Source: Pseudomonadota bacterium
GTDB taxonomy: Bacteria; Pseudomonadota; Gammaproteobacteria; Steroidobacterales; Steroidobacteraceae
DNA length: 32,475 nt
NCBI GenBank assembly: GCA_947453225.1
Contig: CANGFV010000012.1
Span: 1 to 32,475 of the forward strand
Direction of reading: 5' to 3'
The position numbers and the translations under genes were made by a program. Positions 1,026 through 28,917 of this stretch are shown in pieces. Every line of letters starts with the position of its first letter. Positions within the stretch are counted from its first letter, which is position 1. The notes under the pieces are model-generated. The model saw only the letters and a program-made list of their open reading frames with translations. It ran no database searches and was not told where the DNA came from.

Positions 1026-2510
1026 TTATTCTTCTCGAGTAACGCGCAAGACTTCTTCGACCGTAGTGATGCCTTGGAGAATCTTGTTGCGACCGTCATC
1101 CCGGATGCTAGGTGTTAAAGTACGAGCATAGCGCTCTAGTTCGTGTTCGCCGGCGCCGTCATGAATCATATTTCTTAAGGTGTCATCGATTGCGACAAAT
1201 TCATGGATGCCCGTACGACCCTTAAAGGCCTGTGTAGATCCTGTGCGAGGCCTATATAACGTGACCGGTGGATCAGTATCTGGGATATTCAGTAAGCGAC
1301 GTTCATAGTCGCTGGCAATATAGGCTTCGCGTTGTTCAGGATTGAGTACGCGCACCAGTCGTTGAGCTAGCACGCCCAATAGACTGGACGAGAGTAGGAA
1401 GGGTTCAATACCCATGTCTCGTAATCGTGTGACCGCGCCGACCGCAGTGTTGGTGTGAAGGGTGGAGAGTACAAGGTGACCTGTGAGTGAGGCTTGTACG
1501 GCGATTTGTGCGGTTTCAAGGTCGCGAATTTCACCCACCATCACCACGTCAGGGTCTTGACGCAGAATGGCGCGTAGTCCGCGGGCGAAAGTCATATCGA
1601 CTTTGGTATTGACCTGAGTCTGTCCAATGCCATCGATGTAGTACTCGATAGGATCTTCGACGGTCATAATGTTGCGAGTGTTATCGTTAATGCACTCAAG
1701 AGCCGCATATAACGTGGTGGTTTTACCCGAGCCGGTCGGTCCAGTTACCAAGACAATGCCGTGCGGTCGATGAACAAGATTTTGCATCAGTGTCTGAGTT
1801 TCAGGCACCATCCCAAGCGAGGTCAGATCTAATCGGCCCGCTTGCTTATCTAAAAGACGCAACACAACGCGTTCACCATGTCCGGCAGGAATAGTGGAGA
1901 CGCGCACATCGACTGCGCGACCTGCAATTCTTAGGGAGATTCGACCATCTTGAGGAACGCGTTTTTCGGCGATGTCCATTTTAGACATCACTTTGATACG
2001 CGAAACGACTAAAGGCGCGAGCGCTCTTTTAGATTGCAGCACTTCACGCATCACTCCATCGACACGAAAACGAAATACCAAGCGATTTTCAAAAGGTTCA
2101 ATATGAATATCGGATGCGTTTTCTTTAACGGCCTGAGTGAACAGTGCGTTAATGAGTTTTATGATCGGTGCGTGATCGTCGCTTTCTAGCAAATCAGAAG
2201 GTTCAGGAAGATCCTGTGCTAGATGTTCAAGGTCAATGTCATCTTCAAGACCTTCAACCGCGTCTTGAGCTGCATTTTGGCCGGCTTCATATTGAGTGCG
2301 CAGCAGTTGATCAAAGGCTTCTGAATCTATGCGTTGCACAGCTAGCGGAATAGAGATGAGTCGACGTACTTCAGCAATGGATGTTGGCGTGACGTCTTGG
2401 CGACACAGTAGATGTGCACGATCGTTCTTCACCTCAGTGATGATGACGCCGTGGCGCTTAGCGAAGCTGAAGGTCAGGCTGGGGCGAGAAGTTGCTGCCG
2501 TTTCGTTCAT
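1026..2510 (-). CDS. gspE: Type II secretion ATPase GspE, lacking the tetracysteine motif
   Basis: GspE is the cytoplasmic hexameric ATPase that powers pseudopilus assembly. The 494-residue protein has the N1E-type N-domain (about 1-110) and a secretion-ATPase core. Visible motifs are Walker A GPTGSGKTT (257-265), the Asp box around VEDPIEY (284-290), Walker B DVVMVGEIRD (321-330) and the His box around LVLSTLHTNT (346-355). Most GspE proteins carry two CxxC pairs that bind zinc between the core and the C-terminus. Here the corresponding stretch, about 389-430, has none: the first pair is replaced by NPEQ and the second region reads TGSTQAF, while the flanking GRTGIHE is intact. The ATPase core looks functional. 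The gene lies 10 bases after gspD, in the operon order C-D-E-F. The start ATG at 2510 fits the family length. Confidence 0.96.
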   Translation of the reverse strand: MNETAATSRPSLTFSFAKRHGVIITEVKNDRAHLLCRQDVTPTSIAEVRRLISIPLAVQRIDSEAFDQLLRTQYEAGQNAAQDAVEGLEDDIDLEHLAQDLPEPSDLLESDDHAPIIKLINALFTQAVKENASDIHIEPFENRLVFRFRVDGVMREVLQSKRALAPLVVSRIKVMSKMDIAEKRVPQDGRISLRIAGRAVDVRVSTIPAGHGERVVLRLLDKQAGRLDLTSLGMVPETQTLMQNLVHRPHGIVLVTGPTGSGKTTTLYAALECINDNTRNIMTVEDPIEYYIDGIGQTQVNTKVDMTFARGLRAILRQDPDVVMVGEIRDLETAQIAVQASLTGHLVLSTLHTNTAVGAVTRLRDMGIEPFLLSSSLLGVLAQRLVRVLNPEQREAYIASDYERRLLNIPDTDPPVTLYRPRTGSTQAFKGRTGIHEFVAIDDTLRNMIHDGAGEHELERYARTLTPSIRDDGRNKILQGITTVEEVLRVTREE

Positions 2511-2520
2511 GGGTGCCGTC

Positions 2521-4575
2521 TTACTTGACGCTATCCGTGGGCGGTAATGGTGCGGTACTTAAGTCTTTGGTAGGTGGCGCTACTGCATCAGAACTTGCTT
2601 GAGGCAATTCTGGCAGTAGGGGCTGTTCTTCGTTTGGTTGTAAGCTGACACTGCCGCCATTGATGTTGAGTTGCAAGTCGCGCACAAAATTATATTTCGA
2701 ATTAGTTTCATACGAAGCCTGAATGGCATTACGCATTACAGTGGGCTTAATGAAAACCAGTAGATTGGTTTTGCTCTTCTTGCTGTTGCTTGATTTAAAT
2801 AAGTGACCAATTAATGGGATTGAGCTCAGAATAGGTACGCGCGAGGCGCCTTCTGTGACTTTGTCGTCCAGTAGGCCGCCGAGAATGATGGTCTGACCAT
2901 CATCAACCAACACCTGAGTTTCAATGCTACGTTTATTGGTGATCAGACTACCGGCATCACCCGTTTGCTGTGACAGAGATGAAGACTCTTGAGCAATTTT
3001 GAGGGTAATTGTGCCGCCTTTGCTAATTTTAGGCGTGATGTGCAGTTTGGTGCCCACGTCTTGACGTTGGATCGTGGTGAATGGATTCACCGTTCCTGTT
3101 GAGCCACTGGTTGTGCCTGTGCTCGTTCCAGTCGAGGTGTACTGACCAGTAATCAACGGAACTTGTTGGGTCACCTCAATTTTCGCTTCCTTGTTATCTT
3201 GGGTCGTAATGGACGGTGTTGAAATGATGTTGGTGTTACCGTCTTCTTGCAGTGCGTGCAAAATGGCAGCAAAGCTGACTCCAGAATCAATAATGCGACC
3301 AACACCCAAAGTGGTGCCAGAAGGAAGCGCTGAAAAATTATTTGTAAGCGCCGCGCTTGCTACTGAAGTGATAGGCGTGCTTCCGCCATTGAAGATAGCG
3401 GCGGGTACGTTTGAGTTTGCATTTCCGTAGAGGGCCCAATTTACACCCAGTTCAGCTGATTTAGACGCCGATACTTCCACAACGATGGCCTCGAGTTTGA
3501 CGTTGGCTAGGCGGATATCCAGCGTGTCTACAATCGACATGATCTGTTCCATGATTTTAGGTGGTGCACTGACGACAAGCGCATTGGTTGCTTTGTCTGC
3601 CCAGATTGAAACACTGTTGCTCAAATTCGAGCTGGTACTGCCTGCTGCGGCGCTACCGGTGGCGGCCTGCGTGATGCCTTGGATTTGTGCTTTGAGGCTA
3701 TTAGCCATAGTTTCGGCATCTGCATACTCCAAAAAGCGTGTCTTGGTGTTGCTGCCGCTTTGTAGTGGGGTATCGAGGTAGGTAATTAATGTTCGAACAC
3801 GGAGTTGGGCTGCTTTATCGCCGCTGATAATGATGCTGTTAGTACGATCATCGGCAACGACTTTTAAGGGCTGGCCGCCATCGGCAGGTGCTGGTGTTGC
3901 GCCTGAAGCGCTTAAAGAATTAACAACTTTAATGATTTCTGATGCAGTGGCATTCTGCATCTGAATAATTTCGTAATTATCGTCGGTGGCTTTATCGATG
4001 CGCTCAATGATGCGTAGCATACGATTGACGTTATTGGCGCGATCTGTGATCACCAACATATTACTGGCTGAGTACGCTACCAAGTTACCGTAGGTGGCCA
4101 CTAAAGGTCGAAGTATTGGAACCAGTTGTGCGGCACTGACATTGCGTACAGTAATGACCTGAGTCACCAGTTCAGAAGAATTGCTGTTGATCGTGCCGGG
4201 TAGGTCGTTAGCAGGCACTTGGCGCGCATTCGCATCAGGAATAATAGTTAGCGTGTTGCCACCACTGGGCACGGCAACAAAGCCATGTACTTGGAGAATA
4301 GACAAGTAAGCTTCATAAAAAGCATTGGGTGACATGGGTGTAGAAGACAGCATGGTGACCTGCGCCTTCACACGAGGATCGATAATGATGGTTTTACCGG
4401 TCACGGCGCTGACAGCTTCGGTGATCTGCGATAGATCCGCATCTTTGTAATTAGGCGTGATTGTGGCGCGATTGCTTACTTGCTGGGCATGAGCACAGGG
4501 CCACGTGAGTAGGCACGCAGCTAAAAAAGTGATGAGAGGTTGCCGTAATAGGGAGGTGAAATTGATGCTCATCAT
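2521..4575 (-). CDS. gspD: Type II secretion outer-membrane secretin GspD
   Basis: GspD forms the multimeric outer-membrane channel of the type II secretion system. The 684-residue protein starts with a Sec signal peptide (residues 1 to about 30, hydrophobic core LITFLAACLLTW, cleavage after AHA). Next come an N0 domain (NYKDADLSQITEAVSAVTGK), N1-N3 domains with repeated VVADDRTNSIIISG-type strands, and the secretin domain. The secretin domain includes the cap/gate loop rich in Gly/Ser/Thr (about residue 495-520) and the conserved VDDGQTIILGGLL segment. The C-terminal 45 residues are Pro-rich, and no clear pilotin-binding S-domain could be recognised by eye. The ATG at 4575 lies 8 bases after the gspC stop; a second Met follows directly. 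No pilotin gene (gspS) lies nearby in the window. Confidence 0.97.
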   Translation of the reverse strand: MMSINFTSLLRQPLITFLAACLLTWPCAHAQQVSNRATITPNYKDADLSQITEAVSAVTGKTIIIDPRVKAQVTMLSSTPMSPNAFYEAYLSILQVHGFVAVPSGGNTLTIIPDANARQVPANDLPGTINSNSSELVTQVITVRNVSAAQLVPILRPLVATYGNLVAYSASNMLVITDRANNVNRMLRIIERIDKATDDNYEIIQMQNATASEIIKVVNSLSASGATPAPADGGQPLKVVADDRTNSIIISGDKAAQLRVRTLITYLDTPLQSGSNTKTRFLEYADAETMANSLKAQIQGITQAATGSAAAGSTSSNLSNSVSIWADKATNALVVSAPPKIMEQIMSIVDTLDIRLANVKLEAIVVEVSASKSAELGVNWALYGNANSNVPAAIFNGGSTPITSVASAALTNNFSALPSGTTLGVGRIIDSGVSFAAILHALQEDGNTNIISTPSITTQDNKEAKIEVTQQVPLITGQYTSTGTSTGTTSGSTGTVNPFTTIQRQDVGTKLHITPKISKGGTITLKIAQESSSLSQQTGDAGSLITNKRSIETQVLVDDGQTIILGGLLDDKVTEGASRVPILSSIPLIGHLFKSSNSKKSKTNLLVFIKPTVMRNAIQASYETNSKYNFVRDLQLNINGGSVSLQPNEEQPLLPELPQASSDAVAPPTKDLSTAPLPPTDSVK

Positions 4576-4583
4576 AGTCCTAA

Positions 4584-5603
4584 TTATTTCGAACTGGCTT
4601 TGTTGGTAGAGGGTAAGCCACTAAGGCCGCCACTGCGAGGTCCTAAACTGCTGCTGGCGCTTGTCGCGCTGGACGATTGCGATCCAGTATTTCCAGGTAA
4701 ATTAAGTTGTGACATATCTAAAACTAGAGACTGGCTGACACCATTGCGTTCGACTGTAATTTGCGCGGTTGTAGATGAGGTCAAAGAATTAAGAATTTCG
4801 GTGCCCCGACGAATATCGTCTAGGACGCTGCCATTGACTGATGTGACTAAGTCCCCAGATTGTAAACCTATACGGGTAAATTGTTCACGGTCGCGGCCGG
4901 GGTAAATTCGGTAGCCTTTCTGGACGCCATTCACAAGTACGGGTTGAGCTCGGAACAGATCGCCTAAAACGTTCGGATTGGCATTCACCATTTTACGTAG
5001 CGTATCGCCAGGAGTATTGCTAGGGGTATTCATGTTTAGTCCCGCAGAGGTGGCGCTCGGTGGTAGCAAGGTAGTGGGCAGCCCGCGCGGTAACTTTACA
5101 GCTTCAAGTGTGCCGTTGTTATCGATGACGATACGGTCTGAATACACCGAGTGTAGACGGACGTTACCGTTAATTGATGCGCCTACACGGTAGAATTTTG
5201 CATTGCTTGCATTTTCTCCAACGATGGCAAAGCCTTGATCTGGTTCAGGCATGGCCATGGTGCCGGCAAGCAGTAGGTTGAGCTGGCTGATTGGAAGATT
5301 ATTTGGATCAACTTTAGTGGGTGTGGCACTTGGGTTGCCGAATAAATAGGCATTGGCTATCTGTTGTGGATCGATGGGCGTAAAGTTGACGGTGGGTAAC
5401 TGAGGTGGCGGCATTGGTGCTTCAGCCACGCTTGCGGGTGTCATAAAAAGCCAAGTTAGTTTGGCCGCCTGCCAGGTCACGCCAATGGCGGCAATCACAG
5501 TCAGAAGCTGTGGGGCTTTCTGCTTAGTCAGTTCAAATAAACGCTTCCCATCCATCTTCCTGAGCTGATGGAATATCGTTGGTAATTTAGGGCTGACGGT
5601 CAT
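4584..5603 (-). CDS. gspC: Type II secretion inner-membrane protein GspC with PDZ domain
   Basis: GspC links the inner-membrane platform to the periplasmic N0 domain of the secretin and helps set substrate specificity. The 339-residue protein has a short cytoplasmic N-terminus and one membrane segment at about 34-53 (LLTVIAAIGVTWQAAKLTWL). A periplasmic HR domain follows (about 85-175, NAYLFG then LNLLLAGTMA), then a PDZ domain at about 215-300 (RIYPGRDREQF, GLQSGDLVTSVNG). The last 35 residues are Ser/Gly-rich and probably disordered. It is the first gene of gspC-D-E-F and is divergent from clpS across a 230-base region. No clear Shine-Dalgarno sequence precedes the ATG at 5603. The identification is firm from domain order and operon position. 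Confidence 0.95.
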   Translation of the reverse strand: MTVSPKLPTIFHQLRKMDGKRLFELTKQKAPQLLTVIAAIGVTWQAAKLTWLFMTPASVAEAPMPPPQLPTVNFTPIDPQQIANAYLFGNPSATPTKVDPNNLPISQLNLLLAGTMAMPEPDQGFAIVGENASNAKFYRVGASINGNVRLHSVYSDRIVIDNNGTLEAVKLPRGLPTTLLPPSATSAGLNMNTPSNTPGDTLRKMVNANPNVLGDLFRAQPVLVNGVQKGYRIYPGRDREQFTRIGLQSGDLVTSVNGSVLDDIRRGTEILNSLTSSTTAQITVERNGVSQSLVLDMSQLNLPGNTGSQSSSATSASSSLGPRSGGLSGLPSTNKASSK

Positions 5604-18697: not shown

Positions 18698-21307
18698 ATG
18701 ATGAGTAATTCAACCCCGTCTCAGCAGTCGTCACCAGCCTCATGGGTTGTGCTGAAGTTTGGTGGTACCAGTGTGTCCTCAGTAGCCAATTGGAGCAACA
18801 TTGCCTCCATCGTCAAGTTGCGACTCAGTGAAGGCTTACGTCCAGTTATTGTTCATTCTGCAATATCTAAGATGACTGATAGCCTAGAGCTGCTTCTAAG
18901 TAGAGCGCTCAAAGGTGATTGGGAGTCAGTGCTTGAAAGCATTATCAATCGTCATCGTGAGTTGGCCCGTGAAATGGGTGTGGTCATTAGTCCTGAATTG
19001 GAAGAGCAGTTCGGCCGTTTGAAACAAATTGCATCAGGCATCGCGTTGGTAGGAGAGGTTAGTGAGCGTCTGCGTGCTCGTGTGATGGCGCAGGGCGAAT
19101 TGATGGCGACTCGTTTGGGTGCGTTGTATTTAGCCTCGCAAGGTGTTCAAGTGCAGTGGGTGGATGCTCGTAAAGTGCTCAAATCAGTGGCGCTTAAGAA
19201 TGCAACAAGTCGAGCGAGCTATCTATCGGCAACCTGTAATTTTGAGCCTGATTCACAGCTGCAGAGTGAATGGAGTGCGCTAGGTCAAGTCATTATCACT
19301 CAGGGATTTATTGCCAGCGATGCTGCTGAAGACACTGTATTGCTCGGTCGGGGTGGTTCGGATACATCCGGTAGTTATTTTGCTACCAAGCTGCAAGCGC
19401 AGCGTCTGGAGATTTGGACGGACGTACCGGGGATGTTCAGTGCTAATCCCCGTGCTATTCCTACGGCTCGTTTATTACGTGCGCTTGATTACGATGAAGC
19501 GCAAGAAATTGCTAGTGCCGGCGCTAAGGTATTGCATCCGCGTTGCATCATGCCCGTAAAGCAACATGGTATTCCTTTGTATGTTTATGCGACCCAAACT
19601 CCAGATTTAGAAGGCACAATTATCACTGCGCATGGCGGTGAGGGTGACCCGCAAGTCAAGGCGGTCACGGTTAAGAATGGCATTACCTTGGTTTCCATGG
19701 ATACTGTCGGAATGTGGCATTCGGTGGGTTTTCTAGCTGATGCATTTCAGGTGTTTAAAAATCACGGTATGTCCGTAGATTTGGTTTCAACTTCAGAAAC
19801 TAATGTGACTGTTTCTCTCGATCCTGCCGCTAATACGCTCACTCAGGCTGCCGTGGATTTGTTAGTCGAGGATCTTGCGCAGTTATGCAAGGTTCAGGTT
19901 TTTGGTCCGTGTGCGGCGGTGAGTCTGGTAGGAAGACAGATACGAGCAATCTTGCACCGTTTGGGAGATGCGCTGGAGTTATTTGAAGAGCAAAAAATTT
20001 ATCTAATGACTCAAGCGGCTAACGACCTGAATCTGACCTTTGTATTAGATGAAAGTCAGGGTGATCGATTAGTGTCGCGTTTGCACCAAATCACCATTCA
20101 TGACTCGCCTGACAGTCATGTGTTGGGCCCGACTTGGGAGCAATTGTACAGTCCAAAGCAGGTCGTCTCTGAACTACCGGTTGCTTGGTGGCAGCAAAAG
20201 CAGTCCGAGTTATTACAGATTGCAAATCAGCATCCTTCTGCCTATGTCTATGATCGTGACGCCTTGGTGCGTCAGGCTAAAGCAATGAAGAGCATTGCTG
20301 CACTGGATCAGGTGTTCTTTGCGATGAAAGCAAACCCGCATCCAGAGGTGCTGAGAACATTTGTTTCACAAGGATTGGGGCTTGAGTGCGTCTCTCAAGG
20401 TGAGTTGGCTCATGTGTTTAATACCGTGCCTGAACTTGAGCGCAAGCGCATTCTATTTACACCTAATTTTGCGGCACGTAATGAATATGAGTTTGCCTTG
20501 AAACAGGGCGTATGGGTGACGCTGGATAACTTATATTTGCTTCAAGCATGGCCTGAGACCTTCAAAGGCCGCGAGGTATTGCTCAGAGTAGATACTGGAT
20601 ATGGCCGCGGTCATCACCATCATGTGCGTACGGCAGGTGCGCATTCTAAGTTTGGTATTCCTTTATCTGACTTCGATGAAGTGTTGCAGTTAGTGCAGCA
20701 ATACGATATTCGCGTTGTTGGCTTGCAGGCGCATACTGGTAGCGGTGTGTTTGCCATTGAGAATTGGCGAGAAGTTGCAGAAACTCTGGCGAATCTTGCT
20801 GCGCGTTTCAACAATATTCAGTTGCTCGATATTGGCGGTGGCTTGGGTGTTCCTGAGAAATTGGGTCAGCCTGAGTTTGATATTGCTGCGTTATCGAAGA
20901 TGCTTGCTGAGTTCAAAGCGCAACATCCAAAAATCAAATTATGGATGGAGCCAGGGCGTTATCTCGTGGCTCAGGCTGGCGTTTTGTTGACGCATGTCAC
21001 CCAGCGTAAGGGTAAGGGTGAGGTTCAGTATGTGGGGGTCACCACTGGCATGAATTCATTGATTCGTCCGGCGTTATACGGAGCACACCATGATATTTTT
21101 AATCTCACTCGGTTGCAGGAAGTGGCTACACAAACCATTAATGTGGTTGGACCGATTTGCGAGTCTGGAGATATGTTGGGTATAGATCGTCTATTGCCGC
21201 CTACGCAAGAGGGCGATGTATTATTAGTGGCGACAACAGGTGCTTATGGGCATGCGATGAGCTCGAACTACAATCTAAGAGCGCCAGCGACTGAGTTGGT
21301 GATATAA
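18698..21307 (+). CDS. lysC/lysA: Bifunctional aspartate kinase / diaminopimelate decarboxylase (LysC-LysA fusion)
   Basis: One 869-residue protein joins the first and last steps of lysine synthesis. The N-terminal aspartokinase (about 10-300) has LKFGGTSVSS and LGRGGSDTSGSYFA, followed by ACT-type regulatory domains (about 320-465, with the VSMDTVGMWH and VSTSETNVTVSL strands). A linker near 470-500 leads to the PLP-dependent decarboxylase. It has the Schiff-base lysine K544 in FFAMKANPHPE, GYGRGHHHHVRTAGAHSKFG, LQAHTGSG, GGGLGVP, EPGRYLVA, CESGDMLG and GAYGHAMSSNYN. Both halves keep their key residues. Fusions of this kind are known in Xanthomonas and Xylella. The ATG at 18698 (AGG upstream) is immediately followed by a second ATG. 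It converges on gspN with only 14 bases between stops. Confidence 0.95.
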   Translation: MMSNSTPSQQSSPASWVVLKFGGTSVSSVANWSNIASIVKLRLSEGLRPVIVHSAISKMTDSLELLLSRALKGDWESVLESIINRHRELAREMGVVISPELEEQFGRLKQIASGIALVGEVSERLRARVMAQGELMATRLGALYLASQGVQVQWVDARKVLKSVALKNATSRASYLSATCNFEPDSQLQSEWSALGQVIITQGFIASDAAEDTVLLGRGGSDTSGSYFATKLQAQRLEIWTDVPGMFSANPRAIPTARLLRALDYDEAQEIASAGAKVLHPRCIMPVKQHGIPLYVYATQTPDLEGTIITAHGGEGDPQVKAVTVKNGITLVSMDTVGMWHSVGFLADAFQVFKNHGMSVDLVSTSETNVTVSLDPAANTLTQAAVDLLVEDLAQLCKVQVFGPCAAVSLVGRQIRAILHRLGDALELFEEQKIYLMTQAANDLNLTFVLDESQGDRLVSRLHQITIHDSPDSHVLGPTWEQLYSPKQVVSELPVAWWQQKQSELLQIANQHPSAYVYDRDALVRQAKAMKSIAALDQVFFAMKANPHPEVLRTFVSQGLGLECVSQGELAHVFNTVPELERKRILFTPNFAARNEYEFALKQGVWVTLDNLYLLQAWPETFKGREVLLRVDTGYGRGHHHHVRTAGAHSKFGIPLSDFDEVLQLVQQYDIRVVGLQAHTGSGVFAIENWREVAETLANLAARFNNIQLLDIGGGLGVPEKLGQPEFDIAALSKMLAEFKAQHPKIKLWMEPGRYLVAQAGVLLTHVTQRKGKGEVQYVGVTTGMNSLIRPALYGAHHDIFNLTRLQEVATQTINVVGPICESGDMLGIDRLLPPTQEGDVLLVATTGAYGHAMSSNYNLRAPATELVI

Positions 21308-21321
21308 CAGTGATGCCTTAA

Positions 21322-22077
21322 TCAGAAGGTTCCAGCAATTGATAAAAGGTGGCGACCCTGTGTATCGGGTGGGCCTAGATACTTGATGCGTGACATGATG
21401 CTTGGTGGCGTGATGTCTCTTGGCGTGAAATACAAATCTAGCAAGTAATTTCTATCGCTAGCTAGCCTAATTGTTCCGCTAACACCAAGGCTGGCATCTT
21501 CCATGTCACTGAAGTTGCCAATTACTATTGTTGGGTTTTTAGTTGCAGCATGGAATGAGAGTCTAAAGCTGCCTATAGCGCTGGCTGCTTTAGGTTCAGT
21601 GAGATCAATCAAGTCGAATGTGCCCTCAATAGCAATAGGCCAGTCATCTTTTAGTGTCAGTTGCTTAATGTCTGCCTGTAGCAGTCCATCCCAGCCTTTA
21701 AGCATTTCACTGCCGCCGATGATTGTTTCAAGGGGCAGAGTGGCTTTTAATTCATGGATCTTTGTCTGACCGGTAAGGCTACGACTGATATTTCCAATAA
21801 CAACCCCATCTTTTAGCTGGGCTTTAAAGTTAGATGATAATTGGCCGATCAGTAGGGGTAAGGGATGAATCTGCCATTCCAGAGTCTCGATATTGACGTC
21901 TTTGGATCGCAGGCCTTTAGCGTAGCCATGCCAGAGACTCCCCGAGCTTTGTGAGACGGTAATTCCATAGGGCTGAAGGAGTTTGAGTGCGCTGCTGGCA
22001 GGCATGTTGATTGCGAAGAATGTCGCAAAGCCAAGTAGAGCGGCAATTGACCACCAAAGATATTTCTTGATCTCCAT
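21322..22077 (-). CDS. gspN: Type II secretion protein GspN
   Basis: GspN is an accessory inner-membrane/periplasmic component found in many but not all type II secretion operons; its exact role is unclear. The 251-residue protein has a single N-terminal membrane segment (about 5-25, YLWWSIAALLGFATFFAI), then a beta-rich periplasmic region. Typical features are LLQPYGITVSQSSGSLWHGYA, LEWQIHPLPLLIGQLS and a C-terminal GPPDTQGRHLLSIAG. The ATG at 22077 gives the normal topology. A TTG at 22089 in the same frame is possible but less likely, and neither has a clear Shine-Dalgarno. It is the last gene of gspG-N, 21 bases after gspM, and faces the lysC-lysA stop. Confidence 0.88.
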   Translation of the reverse strand: MEIKKYLWWSIAALLGFATFFAINMPASSALKLLQPYGITVSQSSGSLWHGYAKGLRSKDVNIETLEWQIHPLPLLIGQLSSNFKAQLKDGVVIGNISRSLTGQTKIHELKATLPLETIIGGSEMLKGWDGLLQADIKQLTLKDDWPIAIEGTFDLIDLTEPKAASAIGSFRLSFHAATKNPTIVIGNFSDMEDASLGVSGTIRLASDRNYLLDLYFTPRDITPPSIMSRIKYLGPPDTQGRHLLSIAGTF

Positions 22078-22098
22078 TCCAAAGAGCAACCGACGAAC

Positions 22099-22590
22099 CT
22101 ATCTTGTTAAGGAAATCGAGGCATTGACTTGGCCGGCTTGCGGAGTTTCAGTGATTGAAGCATCCAGAATTTGAATGCCTTTGGTTTTTTGAAGTTGATC
22201 CAGCCAAATGATCAAGTCATTAAAGTTGGCATTTTCAAACTGAGCTTTAACGCCCTGTTGGCCATTGGGAATTTGTCCGGTCAATGCAGAGGCTAATTTG
22301 CTACCGGCAACCGAGTCAGCCACCAGTTTTACTAGGGATTCGGTTTTTGAGATGTTGGTAAACTGAGCATTGCCTAGTCCGCTTAATTGACCTGCCATGG
22401 TTCTTAGCCAAACGATGTCTTGTTGCTTTTGAGTGATACGGTCAGTGCGATTGCTGATTGCTTTATAAAGCGGATAAAAGGCCAGTCCATAGATGGCGCC
22501 TGCGGACAGCAAAAGTATTGAGGTGAGCGCTAGCCAGCGTTCGCGGGGTTTTAGTGAGTTGATTTTGGTTTTGAGTTGACTGTATTGCAT
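22099..22590 (-). CDS. gspM: Type II secretion inner-membrane protein GspM
   Basis: GspM is a bitopic platform protein that pairs with GspL. From the ATG at 22590 the protein has 163 residues: a short cytoplasmic start (LKTKINSLKPRERW), the family's PRERxxL signature, one membrane segment (WLALTSILLLSAGAIYGLAF) and a periplasmic ferredoxin-like domain (FENANFNDLIIWLDQLQKTKGIQI). The frame also offers a TTG at 22626 that overlaps the gspL stop (TTGA). I prefer the ATG because the extra 12 residues fall outside the family's usual N-terminus, but the overlap would permit coupling, so the start is uncertain. No strong ribosome site precedes either. Confidence 0.88.
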   Translation of the reverse strand: MQYSQLKTKINSLKPRERWLALTSILLLSAGAIYGLAFYPLYKAISNRTDRITQKQQDIVWLRTMAGQLSGLGNAQFTNISKTESLVKLVADSVAGSKLASALTGQIPNGQQGVKAQFENANFNDLIIWLDQLQKTKGIQILDASITETPQAGQVNASISLTR

Positions 22591-22622
22591 GGCTATGTTG
22601 TTTTTTAATTTTGGATAAATGA

Positions 22623-23876
22623 TCAAACGCCGCTTGATGACTTGAAGGTCATGTGGCCTTCAATTTTGTCATCGATCGGTGTTGTGTCCTCAACATTGGT
22701 GGTGATGCCTTGGGTTTTGGCTTGTTGTTGGATGTAATCCAGTGACTGATCATTTGGCGCTAATACTTTTAATTGCACAGTGCCTTGATTGTAATTTAGC
22801 TCTTGAATCTTTAACGCATCCTTGGCATTGGTGGACTTAGATAACACATCCAAGGTTTTCATGAGGTGATTGGGCTTTCTGAGTTCTTGTAATTGTTGCC
22901 AGCGAGTTTCAAATGCTGTCCGAACCTGGCCTGATTTTACGGGGGTATTAACGGATAGGGTTTGGCTATAAATAGTTTGAATTTGCTTGTCTAGTTCGGC
23001 TTCTTGTTTGCCTAGTTGTCTTAGCTCAATTCCTTTGCTGAATAAATGCAGGCCAATTAAGGCCAATAAGATGCTGGCTGCAACTTTCCAGCCCCCAAAA
23101 TTGCGTTGCGTTTTTTTACGTTGGGTATATTCACCCTGCAGTAAATTAATTGCACTAGGTTGGGTCGCCTGCAGTGCAAGTAAGGGTAATACACCATCAG
23201 GTAGCAGTTTTATTGCAAGTTTGGGTGCGCGTTCCTGTAGTGCATTAATTGTAGTTTTTTCTGCTTCGCATTCAGCTTCAGTGATGTATACCGTGACTGA
23301 TTGATCGGTCGCGGGGACGAGTAGATACAAGGCTTCTGTTAATGGCGATACATCTAATGTATTTACAGTTGAGTCTGCCTGTTTGACAGAGACTCGACCC
23401 TGATCAATTAAAATGGTGATGCCTTCTGATGTAATAGGTAACAGACTGGTATCGGTGTTCAGTGCATCGGGTTGTGCGCCTGCTGCAGTTAATGCCGAGA
23501 TCCAAGTCTTCATTAAGTTACGAGAGACAACCACTACTGGCGTGCTTGGCGCTTTGCCGCGTTTGCCAATCGCAAAGTGCAGTTCATCAATGTCTACGGC
23601 AAGTTGATCCTCTAGGGCATAGGGGACGACTTGGCTGAGTTTGGTATTGCCTTTCAGTGCGGGTAGTACAGGATTAAGGGCAAGCGTCTCGGTGCCAGGC
23701 ACAAGGGCAATCACTTTCCTGCCGTGAGCAAGCATTGCGGCCTCCGCAAGGCGACCTTGCAGTGCTGTACCTAGGCGTGCGCCGTGCGTATCTACTAATA
23801 GCCACTGTGCCTCGGTCTCGGTGGGCGTGACTGTATTGACCGCGCTCAGCAAACGTATTACTAAAATTTCTGACAT
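22623..23876 (-). CDS. gspL: Type II secretion platform protein GspL
   Basis: GspL ties the cytoplasmic ATPase GspE to the inner-membrane platform. The 417-residue protein has an actin-like cytoplasmic domain (about 1-245, with LIPAxE-like VALVPGTETLALNPVLPAL and QVVPYALEDQLAVDIDELHF), one membrane segment at about 255-278 (VAASILLALIGLHLF) and a periplasmic ferredoxin-like domain (about 320-417). The QVVPYALED motif is characteristic of the family. It starts at the ATG at 23876, 18 bases after the gspK stop. Length and domain order are normal. Confidence 0.93.
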   Translation of the reverse strand: MSEILVIRLLSAVNTVTPTETEAQWLLVDTHGARLGTALQGRLAEAAMLAHGRKVIALVPGTETLALNPVLPALKGNTKLSQVVPYALEDQLAVDIDELHFAIGKRGKAPSTPVVVVSRNLMKTWISALTAAGAQPDALNTDTSLLPITSEGITILIDQGRVSVKQADSTVNTLDVSPLTEALYLLVPATDQSVTVYITEAECEAEKTTINALQERAPKLAIKLLPDGVLPLLALQATQPSAINLLQGEYTQRKKTQRNFGGWKVAASILLALIGLHLFSKGIELRQLGKQEAELDKQIQTIYSQTLSVNTPVKSGQVRTAFETRWQQLQELRKPNHLMKTLDVLSKSTNAKDALKIQELNYNQGTVQLKVLAPNDQSLDYIQQQAKTQGITTNVEDTTPIDDKIEGHMTFKSSSGV

Positions 23877-23894: not shown

Positions 23895-24872
23895 CTAATA
23901 GGGCGTGCCAAAGCTGCGTTGTATGACTCGCACTTTGGCGTTGTTACCATTTCCGAATCTGTTAATGACACTGTACATGGCAAGTTCCGTTGAGCCAAGA
24001 GTGACAAGGATATTCACTCGAAAGTAGTTGGTTGTTTCGACCAGATAATCAGGATAAGTGGCGATAAGTTTGTCGAAATCTGGATCGCCCCTAAAGTCGT
24101 TCTTGACTTCGCTGAGTCTGGGGAAGCAGCCATTGGCGCGATTGCTTGTGAATGTGTTTGTGTTGTTGCCAAATTGGGTGCGTGTGGTCGCTAATGAGTC
24201 CAAGACTTCCGCTGCTGCGGTACATACATTAAGGCCCGTGCCGGCAGGTAGGGCGCTTACGAAGGGCTCTAGTTTGTCGTAAATGGCCTTCGTCATGCCC
24301 ACCTGAAACATCAATTCAGAGGTTCGGGTGATGGCCATGTTGGCGGTTAGATATGGCGGCGATTGTCCGGCGTAGACGGAGTCTTCAGCGCCATCTGGAG
24401 GTTCCGCTGTGGTATTGGCATCCAGCCAATCCACGGTGATGTTTGCCCATCGGCGATCAAGCCCAAGAATTTCTAGAAGTCGTTCAAACTGTTTCACAGC
24501 CGCTTCGTTCTTGGTGCCATCTAATTTGAGTAAGTTGTTTAAATTAAATCGGCCCTGAAGGTCTTCCAATCGACCTTTGATGTCACCCGTTCCCTCATCA
24601 AGTGGCAAGTTAATGGGCGTGCCCCAATCTTCTTTTGCAGAGTCTATAGTTGATTCTTTGCTGTCCTCGATAAGCACGTTTGCCGCAAGCGCTTCTGCGC
24701 CTAGGCCTAATGCGTAGGCTTGGTCTAAAGCCATAATGGTTGAGGTGCGACGTTGATCCATATAGCTCTCAGTGCCCACGCTCACTGCCAGCATGGTGGC
24801 CAGCACCACGATCAAAATTGCCATCAGCAAAGCAATGCCGCGTTCCTTTTTTGGGAAGTGGGAATAGCTCAT
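23895..24872 (-). CDS. gspK: Type II secretion minor pseudopilin GspK
   Basis: GspK caps the pseudopilus tip together with GspI and GspJ. The 325-residue protein has a prepilin leader cleaved after Gly12 (KKERG^IALLMAILIVVLATMLAVSVG). It lacks the glutamate at position +5, which is the known peculiarity of GspK. The large inserted alpha domain follows, with the conserved DLQGRFNLNNL, VDWLDAN and TSELMFQVGM segments and a pair of Cys residues. Its ATG overlaps the gspJ stop by four bases (ATGA). Prepilin peptidase (GspO/PilD), needed for cleavage, is not in the window. Confidence 0.95.
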   Translation of the reverse strand: MSYSHFPKKERGIALLMAILIVVLATMLAVSVGTESYMDQRRTSTIMALDQAYALGLGAEALAANVLIEDSKESTIDSAKEDWGTPINLPLDEGTGDIKGRLEDLQGRFNLNNLLKLDGTKNEAAVKQFERLLEILGLDRRWANITVDWLDANTTAEPPDGAEDSVYAGQSPPYLTANMAITRTSELMFQVGMTKAIYDKLEPFVSALPAGTGLNVCTAAAEVLDSLATTRTQFGNNTNTFTSNRANGCFPRLSEVKNDFRGDPDFDKLIATYPDYLVETTNYFRVNILVTLGSTELAMYSVINRFGNGNNAKVRVIQRSFGTPY

Positions 24873-25498
24873 GCGGCAATCTCAATGAGACGCACGATTT
24901 CACCCCAGTCATTGAGTTTGAGGGTAATTTCTACTGCAAGCGGTAATTGTCTGGCTGCAGAAGTTGCAGAACCGCCGACTGTATTAGCAGGCCATGAGGT
25001 TTGCCATTGACGATTAAGATCCATGAAACGGAAGCTCATTGAGCTTACTTCGCCGAGCAGTTCCACCTGTTGAGGCTCATTGCTTAAGTTACGATCGAGC
25101 GTGACCCAATAATCACGATAGAGTTTGTTATCTTCAATGCGATAGCAGACTCGTTGTAGCGTCGAGCGTGGCAGACCTACTGGGTTTGTCCAGCCAGAGT
25201 GCGTCAATTCCAGCAAGCAACCTGTAGCATTAATCTGTATCGAGGGCTTCAAGGTTGCTGAGGTGGCATCACGTACGGGGCGGGGCTCGAGTTGCATTAA
25301 GTCTCGTGAGATGCTGGTTACCGTGCGTTGAATCGAACGAATTCTGAGCATGGATTCAGAGGTGTGTTCGCGCTGCTTCACCAGTTCATTAAATCCTCCC
25401 ATAGCCATCACGCCGACAATGGAAAAAATAATGATGGAGATGAGTAATTCAAGTAAGGTAAAGCCGCGAGTGCGTAATATGGAGCGGGGGTTGTTCAT
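24869..25498 (-). CDS. gspJ: Type II secretion minor pseudopilin GspJ
   Basis: GspJ forms the tip complex with GspI and GspK. The 209-residue protein carries a short prepilin leader cleaved after Gly12 (RTRG^FTLLELLISIIIFSIVGVM) with Glu at +5. The globular part has the GspJ pattern RTVTSISRDLMQLEPRPVRD and a C-terminal LAVEITLKLNDWGEIVRL. Both ends overlap neighbours by four bases (ATGA with gspI upstream and with gspK downstream), indicating tight translational coupling. Length is normal. Confidence 0.94.
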   Translation of the reverse strand: MNNPRSILRTRGFTLLELLISIIIFSIVGVMAMGGFNELVKQREHTSESMLRIRSIQRTVTSISRDLMQLEPRPVRDATSATLKPSIQINATGCLLELTHSGWTNPVGLPRSTLQRVCYRIEDNKLYRDYWVTLDRNLSNEPQQVELLGEVSSMSFRFMDLNRQWQTSWPANTVGGSATSAARQLPLAVEITLKLNDWGEIVRLIEIAA

Positions 25499-26043
25499 GT
25501 TGAGCCTCCATCTCCATTTTCGCCATTGTCATTGTTTTCTGAGCTTGCGCTGGAACTAGAGCTAGAGTAGTTGTTGCCGCTGGCACTTGATGATGATCCG
25601 CTGCCGCCACCGCCACGACGCTCAGGGCCAGTATCCCACTCGATACGATTGCCATTCACATTCATAGCGGTGCTATAAAAGCCATAGACACTAGCAATGC
25701 TATTGCTGTCCGAATCTTTTGGTGAAACGTGGATGTCTATGCGCTGCATAGATTTCACATCGGTTTCACTGATAGTCATGCGCCAGTGCCAAGTGCTGCC
25801 CGCCATATTGATATAAGCATCTGATTCACCGTTTTTTGGAGCAGCATTGCTTAATCTAAATTCAGTCAGCTTATTCATCGCCACCCAGTGAGCGATGGTT
25901 TTTTGGCGAATGTAGTCAGCGTTATTAATGGTTTGGCTAATGGCTTCAATCACAGCCAGCATGCCTAATCCGACAATAACTAATGCTGCCAATACCTCGA
26001 TCAGCGTAAAACCGCGTTGATGGGTGTAGCGTGCTGGAGTCAT
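25495..26043 (-). CDS. gspI: Type II secretion minor pseudopilin GspI with Ser/Asn-rich C-terminal tail
   Basis: GspI is the tip-complex scaffold pseudopilin. The leader is cleaved after Gly11 (HQRG^FTLIEVLAALVIVGLGM), with Glu at +5. The core IRQKTIAHWVAMNKLTEFRL is family-typical (the WVAxNKLxExRL motif). GspI is usually about 120-130 residues; this one has 182. After the last core strand (IEWDTGPE) comes a tail of about 42 residues (141-182) made almost only of Gly, Ser, Asn, Glu and Asp. Several different Ser codons are used, so it is not a simple recent DNA repeat. The ATG overlaps the gspH stop (ATGA). Confidence 0.92.
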   Translation of the reverse strand: MTPARYTHQRGFTLIEVLAALVIVGLGMLAVIEAISQTINNADYIRQKTIAHWVAMNKLTEFRLSNAAPKNGESDAYINMAGSTWHWRMTISETDVKSMQRIDIHVSPKDSDSNSIASVYGFYSTAMNVNGNRIEWDTGPERRGGGGSGSSSSASGNNYSSSSSSASSENNDNGENGDGGST

Positions 26044-26705
26044 TGTAAGTTGCTACCCGAGTCAAGGGTCAGGGTGCTGTCGTCTGCTCCAACTAGTCTC
26101 CAGCTAAAGTCTGATTGATCTCTGGATATACGCAATTCAAACGGTGAGATGTCGCCACTGGATAAAATCATGATTTGTGGTGTGACATCTTCTTTGAGTG
26201 CAGACGAACTTGTGTTACTGGTGGTATTGGGTTGATAGCCTATCTGCGTATCCGTACTTTGGGCACTAGATGAACTTGAGGAAGTTCTTGCAAGTAGTTC
26301 TTGGTTTTCTTGATGTGTGTTAATAACTATTTCTCTATCTTCAAGCCACAAGCGCATTTGTAAGCCTGCTGGAAGTTGCCGATAGTCGGTCATATCGTCG
26401 TTATTCATGAGTTGCCAGTGTTGGGCGGTGTGGTCGTAACGCATGAATAGGTAGCCATCTTTTTCGATTAACAGACCAATGTCTCGTCCTTGTAATTCAG
26501 ATTCTTCTTTGACTTGTTCAATCACCGCTTTTAATCGTTTTGCCTGATCTTCGATATCGTTATCGCGGCCGAGTACGCCCATAGATAGTGTGGCTACTGA
26601 CAAAATAATACCGATGATGACAATGACCACCAGTAATTCAATGAGAGTAAAGCCAGAGCCGCTGCTTAATGGCTTTTTTGGCGTATGACCTTGAGTGGCA
26701 AACAT
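26040..26705 (-). CDS. gspH: Type II secretion minor pseudopilin GspH with Ser/Thr-rich insertion
   Basis: GspH is a minor pseudopilin linking the GspG shaft to the tip complex. The leader is cleaved after Gly18 (SGSG^FTLIELLVVIVIIGIIL), with Glu at +5. The core motif PQIMILSSGDISPFELRI near 176-193 is the GspH signature. Length is 221 residues, longer than the usual 150-190. The excess is a low-complexity Ser/Thr/Asn stretch at about 141-170, placed in a loop just before the signature strand. The gene follows gspG after a 65-base gap that holds a strong hairpin. Confidence 0.92.
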   Translation of the reverse strand: MFATQGHTPKKPLSSGSGFTLIELLVVIVIIGIILSVATLSMGVLGRDNDIEDQAKRLKAVIEQVKEESELQGRDIGLLIEKDGYLFMRYDHTAQHWQLMNNDDMTDYRQLPAGLQMRLWLEDREIVINTHQENQELLARTSSSSSSAQSTDTQIGYQPNTTSNTSSSALKEDVTPQIMILSSGDISPFELRISRDQSDFSWRLVGADDSTLTLDSGSNLQ

Positions 26706-26770: not shown

Positions 26771-27226
26771 TTAATTTGCGTCCCAGTTGCCAATATCGGC
26801 GTTCACGCCTTCGCCGCCATCCTGATTGTCTGCACCCAACGACCAGAGGTCATATTCTTTTCCGTGCGTACCTGGGTATTGATAGTGATATTCGTTACCC
26901 CATGGATCTTGCTTAATGCTGTCGATGTAGCCGCCTGGCTTCCAATTTCGGACGGAGGCATCGCCTGGGTTGGTCACCAAGGCTTTCAGTCCTTGGTCAG
27001 AGCTTGGGTATTTGAAGTTATCTAGACGAAATAGATTCAGGGCTGTTTCGTAGGCACGAATATCTTGTTTGACTTTCGCAACTTGTGCGTCATCAATTCG
27101 TCGAATGACTTGCGGTGCGACCAGTGCGGCGAGGATGCCTAAAATCACGACGACAACCATGATTTCAATCAAGGTGAAGCCCTGCTGTGAGCGACTAAAA
27201 TGGCGATAGGCTGTTGAGGCTTTCAT
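26771..27226 (-). CDS. gspG: Type II secretion major pseudopilin GspG
   Basis: GspG is the main subunit of the type II pseudopilus. The leader is cleaved at QQG^FTLIEIMVVVVILGILAAL, with Glu at +5. The mature part has IRAYETALNLFRLDNFKYPS, GLKALVTNP, GGYIDSIKQDPWGNEYHY and the C-terminal calcium-site loop LGADNQDGGEGVNADIGNWD, all diagnostic. From the ATG at 27226 there are 151 residues; an in-frame ATG at 27241 adds five. I prefer the internal one because a GGAA lies about 10 bases upstream, while the outer ATG has no purine-rich site. It is the first gene of gspG-N and is divergent from the rhombosortase gene about 50-70 bases away. Confidence 0.95.
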   Translation of the reverse strand: MKASTAYRHFSRSQQGFTLIEIMVVVVILGILAALVAPQVIRRIDDAQVAKVKQDIRAYETALNLFRLDNFKYPSSDQGLKALVTNPGDASVRNWKPGGYIDSIKQDPWGNEYHYQYPGTHGKEYDLWSLGADNQDGGEGVNADIGNWDAN

Positions 27227-27292
27227 AGTGTAATGTTCCATGGGTTCAGGCTATGTTTGTAAGTGTCCCATAATAACAAACAGGGTGCTCGT

Positions 27293-27895
27293 GTGAGTGA
27301 CAATACATTTAAGTTTTGGCGGTTGCGTTACTATTTTCCAATACTGACGTTGGGTGTATTGCTGCTGATTTTCAGTCTGGGCGACGAACCCCTGCGTTTG
27401 TGGCTGAGATATGAGCGTGGGGCGATTTTACGGGGGCATGAACTCTGGCGATTTGTGACCGGACATTTGGTGCACGGTAGTTGGCAGCATACTTGGCTAA
27501 ATCTTTCTGGATTAATCATTATTTCAGTGCTTTTTCGTCATACCTATCGTGTGGCAGAGTGGCTGATAATAGGATTGATTTCGGCGCTGTGTATCGACCT
27601 TGGCTTGTTGTATTGGATGCCATACCTGCAGTGGTATCTCGGGCTGTCAGGGGTTTTGCATGGAGTTTTGGTGGCTGGGGCGTTGTTCTGGTGGCGCACT
27701 GAAAATCGCCGGTTGGCTGCGCTATTGTTAATCATGCTCACTTGCAAGTTGGCTTGGGAGCAGTGGCAGGGTGCCTTACCGCTTTCAGGGGAACTGAATG
27801 TGATTGTGAATGCTCATCTGTATGGAGCAATAGGTGGGCTTTTCTCAGGCTTGCTGCTCATCTTCAAGTCTGCATATTTCAACCAGAAGCAATGA
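27293..27895 (+). CDS. rrtA: Rhombosortase-like rhomboid-family intramembrane serine protease
   Basis: Rhombosortases are small rhomboid proteases that process the C-terminal GlyGly-CTERM signal of surface or secreted proteins, many of them type II secretion clients. The 200-residue protein has about six hydrophobic segments. Catalytic features are the HTWLN motif (rhomboid HxxxN type), GLSGVLHG with the nucleophile Ser119, a KLAWEQWQG stretch and the general-base region NAHLYGAIGG with His175. GLSGxLHG and KxxWEQ are, as I recall the family, rhombosortase-like rather than generic rhomboid. The GTG at 27293 has a good ribosome site (CAGGG, 7 bases before); the GTG at 27263 has none. It is divergent from gspG, which supports a link to secretion. 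Substrates are not in the window. Confidence 0.82.
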   Translation: MSDNTFKFWRLRYYFPILTLGVLLLIFSLGDEPLRLWLRYERGAILRGHELWRFVTGHLVHGSWQHTWLNLSGLIIISVLFRHTYRVAEWLIIGLISALCIDLGLLYWMPYLQWYLGLSGVLHGVLVAGALFWWRTENRRLAALLLIMLTCKLAWEQWQGALPLSGELNVIVNAHLYGAIGGLFSGLLLIFKSAYFNQKQ

Positions 27896-27925
27896 AATCT
27901 CAGCCTGTATTAAGGCTAATCTCGA

Positions 27926-27931
27926 TATAAT
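27926..27931 (+). promoter_or_regulatory. Possible -10 element for fabD
   Basis: A perfect TATAAT lies 48 bases before the fabD ATG in the 83-base gap after the rhombosortase gene. No convincing -35 hexamer is found at 16-18 bases upstream, so the promoter is only a candidate. Confidence 0.3.
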
Positions 27932-27978
27932 CTTCAAAGTTTAAATTTAATGATTCTGCTGTAGAGGTTGATAACTAA

Positions 27979-28917
27979 ATGACGTTTGCAATGGTATTTC
28001 CCGGTCAGGGGTCGCAGTCTGTAGGTATGTTGGCCGCATTAGCGGAACAGGAATCTCTAGTTCGCGATACATTTGCTGAGGCCTCTTCTGTGTTGGGTTA
28101 CGACCTGTGGCAGTTGTGTCAGCAAGGGCCAGAAGATCAGTTGGGTGTTACCGAGAACACCCAACCTGCAATGCTCACTGCCGGCGTTGCTACGTGGCGC
28201 GTGTGGAGAAAACATGGCGGCGCTATACCTGCTGCGATGGCTGGGCATAGCTTGGGTGAATACACTGCTTTAGTGTGTGCAGGTTCGCTTGATTTCAAAA
28301 CCGCAGTTGATCTGGTGAAATTTCGCGGTCAGGCCATGCAAGGTGCTGTGCCTTCTGGGCAGGGTGCGATGGCTGCCATTCTTGGACTTGAAGATGCAGA
28401 TGTTGTAGCAGCCTGCGCTGAAGCTGCACAGGGTGAAATTGTGCAGGCAGCCAACTTTAATTCGCCTGGTCAGGTGGTGATTGCAGGTCAAAAAGCGGCT
28501 GTAGAACGTGCTATTGAGGCGCTTAAAGCCAAAGGTGCTAAACGCGCACTGATTTTGCCGGTCAGCGTGCCTTCACATACCGAGTTAATGCGTCCTGCGG
28601 CCAACCAATTGGCCGAGCGATTATCGCAAGTTGAATTTAAGACTCCAGAAACTGCCGTTTATACCGTGGGTATGCGTACTCATGCCGCTGCGTCTGATAT
28701 TCGCCAAGCTTTGTTTGATCAACTGGTGGGGCCAGTGCGTTGGACAGATTGTGTAAAAACTATCTTGCAGACAGGTGTGAATGTTCTCATCGAGTGTGGT
28801 CCTGGTAAAGTGTTAACCGGTTTAAATCGGCGCATCGACCGCAATAAAGAGATTGCCATGCTCGCCATCGAAGATTCTGCATCGTTGGCTGAAGCGCTGA
28901 ATTCGGTAAAGGGGTAA
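27979..28917 (+). CDS. fabD: Malonyl-CoA:ACP transacylase
   Basis: FabD loads malonyl groups from malonyl-CoA onto acyl carrier protein for fatty-acid elongation. The 312-residue protein opens MTFAMVFPGQGSQSVGM (GQGSQ motif). It has the nucleophile Ser91 in GHSLGEY, the conserved arginine in VKFRGQAMQ and the catalytic His200 in VPSHTELM. Length is normal. A ribosome site AGAGG lies about 11 bases before the ATG. It ends two bases before fabG. Genes plsX and fabH, which often precede fabD in proteobacteria, are not upstream here; the preceding gene is the rhombosortase. Confidence 0.97.
   Translation: MTFAMVFPGQGSQSVGMLAALAEQESLVRDTFAEASSVLGYDLWQLCQQGPEDQLGVTENTQPAMLTAGVATWRVWRKHGGAIPAAMAGHSLGEYTALVCAGSLDFKTAVDLVKFRGQAMQGAVPSGQGAMAAILGLEDADVVAACAEAAQGEIVQAANFNSPGQVVIAGQKAAVERAIEALKAKGAKRALILPVSVPSHTELMRPAANQLAERLSQVEFKTPETAVYTVGMRTHAAASDIRQALFDQLVGPVRWTDCVKTILQTGVNVLIECGPGKVLTGLNRRIDRNKEIAMLAIEDSASLAEALNSVKG

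Follow-up and report, generated by a model that had tools for sequence, protein, structure and literature searches.

The closest described relatives of the gene studied here are the rhombosortases of the TIGR03902 family, among them RssP of Vibrio cholerae and SO_2504 of Shewanella oneidensis. In V. cholerae, the available text of PMC6219818 and PMC11389362 describes VesB as anchored in the inner membrane by a GlyGly-CTERM tail that rhombosortase cleaves after the second glycine; the cut protein receives a glycerophosphoethanolamine-containing modification and then passes through the type II secretion system (T2SS) to the surface. Loss of the enzyme in S. oneidensis is reported, in the accessible part of PMC6085458, to change the location and activity of ExeM little. 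Three signatures of the family are given in the available portion of PMC3237569, namely, SGxLH (its His replacing Tyr205 of GlpG), WRxxS/T in loop 1, and AHxxGxxxG in TM6. A separate body of work concerns GspN: according to the available text of PMC12802150, this protein is needed in Acinetobacter baumannii for T2SS export of N-terminal lipoproteins, not of soluble cargo, and had been dispensable for secretion in earlier work.

The gene described here shares with the TIGR03902 family a score above the cut-off and all three signatures, and its source genome likewise has GlyGly-CTERM-type tails and a T2SS, but it differs in being a divergent neighbor of gspG at the T2SS locus. Such a placement is not described in the accessible parts of PMC3237569, PMC6219818, PMC11389362, and PMC13393428, and we found no rhomboid mentioned together with gspG and fabD in the open-access literature. 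As far as the available texts extend, co-mentions of rhombosortase and gspG are confined to the reference lists of PMC10128026 and PMC4713064 and to a list of secreted proteins in PMC5861075.

Identification of the rhombosortase gene

The window, i.e., the whole stretch of 32,475 nucleotides that was analyzed, is a complete contig (C12) of a draft genome of 1.86 Mb (116 contigs, 96% complete). A preliminary description had placed an open reading frame for a rhombosortase-like protease on its forward strand, and both the position of this frame (Table 1) and the four motifs read from its translation (GLSGVLHG, HTWLN, KLAWEQ, and NAHLYGA) were borne out by the sequence. AGGG lies seven bases 5' of the GTG start, and an in-frame GTG at 27263 is a possible alternative start. 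The protein scores well above the TIGR03902 cut-off of 84 bits (E 5e-37) and matches Pfam Rhomboid at 45.9 bits, with no other Pfam domain above its cut-off. In 14 control genomes, the TIGR03902 model gave no match above the cut-off and weak matches below it in all 14.

The SGxLH signature is present as S119-G-V-L-H123, in which S119, G120, L122, and H123 are invariant in 31 aligned rows; the loop 1 signature reads W52 R53 F V T56, and AHLYGAIGG occupies residues 174 to 182. Ser119 is the counterpart of the active-site Ser-119 of SO_2504, as given in the available portion of PMC3237569. An AlphaFold2 model of the product has a mean pLDDT of 93.3, and its best Foldseek matches in the PDB are GlpG (TM-score of ~0.6 to 0.65 by query length, ~21% identity); at 200 residues, the product has the rhomboid fold without the cytoplasmic N-terminal domain of GlpG. 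On this sequence evidence, the product is confirmed as a rhombosortase and an ordinary member of the known family. Self-processing at the GG-rich last loop of the enzyme was also considered and rejected; that stretch is part of the catalytic helix, and evidence for such processing is absent.

Table 1. Features of the rrtA-T2SS locus in the window
Feature	Coordinates	Strand	Evidence or remark
gspF-like ORF, truncated by contig end	3..1001	-	Directly downstream of gspE; position and sequence look
gspE, ATPase	1026..2510	-	TIGR02533, 678.6 bits
gspD, secretin	2521..4575	-	TIGR02517, 507.6 bits
gspC	4584..5603	-	Pfam T2SSC, 97.9 bits; weak PDZ_2, 18.9 bits, below cut-off of 27
gspN, accessory T2SS gene, far end of gspG-N run	21322..22089	-	Pfam T2SSN, 92 bits
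gspM	22099..22626	-	Pfam T2SSM, 83.7 bits
gspL	22623..23876	-	Pfam T2SSL, 85.8 bits; GspL_C, 49.4 bits
gspK	23895..24872	-	NF037980, 220.7 bits
gspJ	24869..25498	-	TIGR01711, 136.5 bits
gspI, Gly/Ser/Asn-rich C-terminal tail	25495..26043	-	TIGR01707, 86.7 bits, residues 11-109 of 182
gspH	26040..26705	-	TIGR01708, 122.6 bits
gspG, major pseudopilin	26771..27241	-	Pfam T2SSG, 131.3 bits; TIGR01710, 173 bits
Divergent gap gspG-rrtA, 51 bases	27242..27292		Sequence
Rhombosortase gene (rrtA/rssP type)	27293..27895	+	200 aa, GTG start; TIGR03902, 127.1 bits
Codon of catalytic Ser119 (GxSG)	27647..27649	+	Invariant in 31 aligned rows
Codon of His123, rhombosortase hallmark replacing GlpG Tyr205	27659..27661	+	Invariant in 31 aligned rows
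Codon of catalytic His175 in AHxxGxxxG of TM6	27815..27817	+	Invariant in 31 aligned rows
fabD, neighbor on the other side of rrtA	27979..28917	+	TIGR00128, 354 bits at 27979-28845

The T2SS locus and the divergent gap

A T2SS is present in the source genome, with gspC, D, E, G, H, I, J, K, L, M, and N identified by models, and fabD on the opposite side of rrtA is followed by fabG, acpP, and fabF, which were named by inspection of the sequence. Depending on whether gspG starts at 27241 or at its second Met at 27226 on the reverse strand, the gap to rrtA measures 51 or 66 bases, in agreement with the ~50 to 70 bases between divergent starts that had been estimated earlier. Promoters within the 51-base gap would have to overlap. 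A promoter and terminator scan of positions 27000 to 28100 returned two promoter-like sites versus a mean of 1.5 in shuffled sequences, and its counts overall were close to those from chance. The shared regulatory region that had been proposed for the two genes is thus matched by their close divergent geometry and not by the number of promoter-like sites.

Conservation of the gene order

Relatives of the locus were obtained by an alignment-based scan; a single-protein contig scan gave none. In a sample of 100 genomes from the family Steroidobacteraceae, the inferred family, we identified 74 copies above the TIGR03902 cut-off in 73 genomes. By coordinates, 59 of these copies are divergent beside gspG (54 flanked by a divergent gspG on one side and by fabD in the same orientation on the other, and 5 with gspG only), two are beside fabD only, and 13 are elsewhere. 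When the best-scoring 30 family loci were checked by sequence, gspG was adjacent in 29 and fabD also in 28; the sole exception (L007, genome G024) has an empty gspG-fabD site. Such empty sites, with gspG and fabD directly divergent and 132 to 417 bases apart, are also seen in 24 of the 27 genomes that lack an above-cut-off copy, and 10 of the 13 copies located elsewhere occur in genomes with an empty site of 124 to 275 bases. The other three comprise one genome with no adjacent gspG-fabD pair, one with a 2.4-kb gap, and one with a second copy in place.

Beyond the family, an above-cut-off copy was present in 97 of 147 genomes of an order-wide sample, and loci taken from genome searches reach 1.5 kb to either side. 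Among the 80 named loci, 58 lie beside gsp genes (gspG is among these in 54, and the other 4 have gspH-N only); three of the 22 unlinked loci are near a contig end (L069, L070, and L098). A cultured relative with the arrangement is Povalibacter uvarum DSM 26723 (L065). Across all 168 loci, 122 are gsp linked, 41 are unlinked, and 5 at contig ends carry no label. A class-wide sample contained the enzyme in 94 of 274 genomes; among the matches listed, at least 36 of the 94 copies, from 24 families, are at a T2SS cluster (at least 26 within 1.5 kb of gspG and at least 10 others no farther than 12 kb from gspG or gspN), and 58 are not near one. These sequence comparisons show the link between rrtA and the T2SS to be a conserved gene order and not a local accident, and, because the pairing has been kept in many related bacteria, they hint that the enzyme and the export machine may work as one unit.

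Candidate cargo proteins

A scan of the source genome with the GlyGly-CTERM model TIGR03501 returned one tail above the cut-off of 15.5 bits (contig C73, 17.8 bits), which forms the C terminus of an S8 protease; with its frame scored whole, the value falls to 14.8 bits, just under the cut-off. The protease gene is split across two overlapping frames (L003:1465-3025), each of which matches Peptidase_S8 alone, so this cargo may have been lost or the assembly may be wrong. A homologue in a same-genus genome (L348) is unsplit and occupies a single frame. We also built a lineage tail profile from 25 tails of the family, which include the C73 tail, so that its redetection of that tail is circular. 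This profile further retrieved a tail that TIGR03501 had missed, namely, the C terminus of a GloVer-repeat protein encoded on contig C40 (E 0.96). By eye, the C40 tail is clearly tripartite, with a glycine motif, a hydrophobic stretch, and arginines; the protein contains seven GloVer stretches, and among CTERM models it matches MYXO-CTERM best, at 16.6 bits against a cut-off of 20. The preliminary description had expected a pairing with GlyGly-CTERM proteins and had proposed scanning the genome for them, taking their absence as evidence against a rhombosortase; the two tails, one found by TIGR03501 and the other by the lineage profile and by eye, agree with that expectation.

Related genomes gave a varied picture. 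With the lineage profile, a one-frame S8 protease with a similar tail was found in same-genus genome G016 (E 0.009), and three tails were found in G053 (E of ≤0.002), one of which is itself in the profile; in G036, which has the enzyme, TIGR03501 at an E value of 1 and the lineage profile both failed to yield a convincing tail. Tails above the cut-off occur in 37 of the 73 family genomes with the enzyme versus 8 of the 27 without it (p 0.07) and are therefore not clearly commoner with it. The neighbor of the rhombosortase gene in G024 encodes a protein whose tail is, by eye, of the GlyGly-CTERM type (L007:2004-3314). A home-made regular expression for tails was discarded; its matches were mostly the last helix of the enzyme itself and chance frames.

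Association of rhombosortase with GspN

With thresholds of E 1e-20 for the enzyme, 1e-28 for gspG, and 1e-6 for gspN (Pfam T2SSN), gspN was present in 83 of 88 gspG-containing genomes with rhombosortase versus 38 of 95 without it (183 genomes; Fisher, 8e-16) and, after collapsing by family, in 57 of 60 versus 24 of 60 (p 5e-11), both tests ignoring ancestry. Requiring gspE as well left the counts at 83 of 88 and 34 of 86. In six of the 94 enzyme genomes, gspG gave no match at its threshold, so that they fall outside this count; three of them have gspN.

Ancestry was taken into account with a Pagel-type test of dependent evolution on a GspE tree, which covers 145 of the 190 genomes with a GspE match. 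The likelihood ratio of 32.2 was reached in none of 34 simulations under independence, and values of 27.0 to 30.2 were obtained with capped rates, with another tree, or after removal of seven GspE rows lacking GKTT. In the fitted model, the rates of which lie at their bounds, no loss of gspN occurs in the presence of rhombosortase, and the loss rate of rhombosortase in the absence of gspN takes the largest value permitted. As gain of the enzyme without gspN is also fitted as high, the main message of the fit is that rhombosortase fails to persist where gspN is missing. Independent-pairs tests were not significant in either direction: 15 pairs gave on average 2.2 differing the same way, 0.5 the opposite way, and 12.3 showing no difference, and in the other direction, 7 pairs gave 2.1, 0.8, and 4.2, respectively. 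Among 11 families that are mixed for the enzyme, two vary in the expected way (f132 and, in part, f17), one varies in the opposite way (f169), and the remaining eight show no matching gspN difference. We read the association between rhombosortase and GspN as a real lead and not as a proof.

No link between rhombosortase and gspN was found in print in the accessible open-access literature. The A. baumannii system of PMC12802150 resembles the present one in that rhombosortase mostly co-occurs with gspN and that gspN lies in the same gsp run, but its cargo consists of N-terminal lipoproteins, and in the available text, rhombosortase figures only in the reference list. The same paper lists gspN for S. 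oneidensis MR-1, a strain that has SO_2504.

Alternative explanations

An ordinary GlpG-like housekeeping rhomboid that came to lie at gspG by chance would also account for the Pfam Rhomboid domain and the GlpG-like fold, and the product does share with E. coli GlpG both the rhomboid fold and a Ser/His dyad. However, two GlpG models, with cut-offs of 335 and 250, give it 16.1 and 16.3 bits, respectively, the position of GlpG Tyr205 is taken by the invariant His123, and the source genome has a separate rhomboid on contig C108, with 33 bits to TIGR03902. This reading is refuted by the margin between the scores and by the signature residues, and we regard it as scarcely credible; the earlier judgment that the protein is a rhombosortase and not a housekeeping rhomboid held up in the comparison of rhombosortase and rhomboid models that had been suggested for it, in which the rhombosortase model came out far ahead of GlpG. 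Very improbable as well is a dedicated enzyme-target pair with the target gene next door, as in the single-target genomes of Haft and Varghese. The pairs described in the available portion of PMC3237569 involve the same enzyme family, and one such pair exists in this bacterial family, in L007, where the tail gene adjoins rrtA, but in the window the neighbors of rrtA are gspG, with the T2SS operon, and fabD, and both tails are on other contigs (C73 and C40), with none within the 32-kb contig.

Considerably harder to set aside is the explanation that the gene encodes a true rhombosortase whose place at the side of gspG is inherited gene order without functional coupling to the T2SS, to which we give appreciable, although minority, weight. 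It would fit with gspG and fabD being neighbors with or without rrtA, with the promoter scan showing nothing above chance, with the 58 of 94 class-sample copies not near a cluster among the matches listed, and with genome G073, in which rrtA stays with fabD and gspG is on another contig. On an rrtA tree of 168 rows (148 distinct, with overlapping records of the same genomes), the linked label changes 9 times, or 12 times with contig-end loci as a third group; as shuffles under the three-group labeling need 40.6 changes versus the 12 observed, much of the linkage pattern reflects common descent. Where the block is broken, however, rrtA mostly stays with the gsp genes: a nearby fab gene is lacking in 20 linked loci, of which 16 are away from contig ends, and in four of these fab-free loci (L122, L124, L125, and L141), gspE-D-C lies on the far side of rrtA. 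In L063, L064, L075, and L083 (Steroidobacter and Peristeroidobacter), no gspG heads the gspH-N run, and rrtA sits beside gspH. A fab-type match without gsp genes is limited to six loci, three at contig ends and the others being L080 (a weak FabG-like match only, at 69 bits), L171, and L186. Linkage in 24 families among the matches listed likewise argues against inherited order as the whole explanation.

Proposed role of the locus

We consider it highly probable that the gene encodes a rhombosortase that cuts GlyGly-CTERM cargo before its modification and export by the T2SS and that stands beside the T2SS operon, a degree of confidence that leaves out the functional linkage and any role of GspN. 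Family membership, the gene order with its conservation, and the cargo-type tails were observed directly. The predicted cleavage, lipid attachment, and T2SS export in the source organism are carried over from the work on V. cholerae. The enzyme would be an inner-membrane rhomboid serine protease with a Ser119/His175 dyad. Its cargo would bear a signal peptide and end in a glycine motif, a hydrophobic helix, and a basic tail, and it would halt in the inner membrane. By analogy with V. cholerae, rhombosortase would cleave inside the glycine motif, the new C terminus would acquire a glycerophosphoethanolamine-containing group, probably a lipid, and the modified cargo would exit via the T2SS and reach the cell surface. 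The gene for the enzyme is, in this lineage, a standing neighbor of the T2SS operon and would serve cargo genes sited elsewhere; in the source genome, the cargo probably comprises the S8 protease and the GloVer-repeat protein.

More tentatively, and with less than even confidence, we propose that C-terminally lipidated cargo is produced by rhombosortase and carried with the help of GspN and that the rrtA-gspG...N locus may be the genetic footprint of such a unit. This proposal, in which the handling of GlyGly-CTERM cargo by GspN is drawn by analogy, is made because rhombosortase is nearly confined to T2SSs with GspN and because GspN exports lipid-anchored cargo, according to the available text of PMC12802150. 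If it is true, GspN would gain a second kind of lipidated cargo, and a question raised in 2011, whether rhombosortase marks a T2SS subclass, would be answered; from the present sample, it may do so. The useful part of the analysis is the context, i.e., a rhombosortase-T2SS locus in many families of bacteria whose names place them in the Gammaproteobacteria, together with a strong statistical link to GspN, and so far as the accessible open-access literature shows, neither the conserved locus nor the GspN link is in print.

Additional features of the loci

In L122 (10504-11861) and also in L124, L125, and L141, about 1.3 kb separates rrtA from gspE, an interval that may correspond to gspF. In the window, GspI has Ser/Gly-rich low-complexity stretches, its last 73 residues lying outside the TIGR01707 model, and GspH and GspC have Ser/Gly-rich stretches too, to a lesser extent. 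A fused aspartate kinase/diaminopimelate decarboxylase of 869 residues is encoded on the forward strand at 18698 to 21307 (NF006515, 1245 bits).
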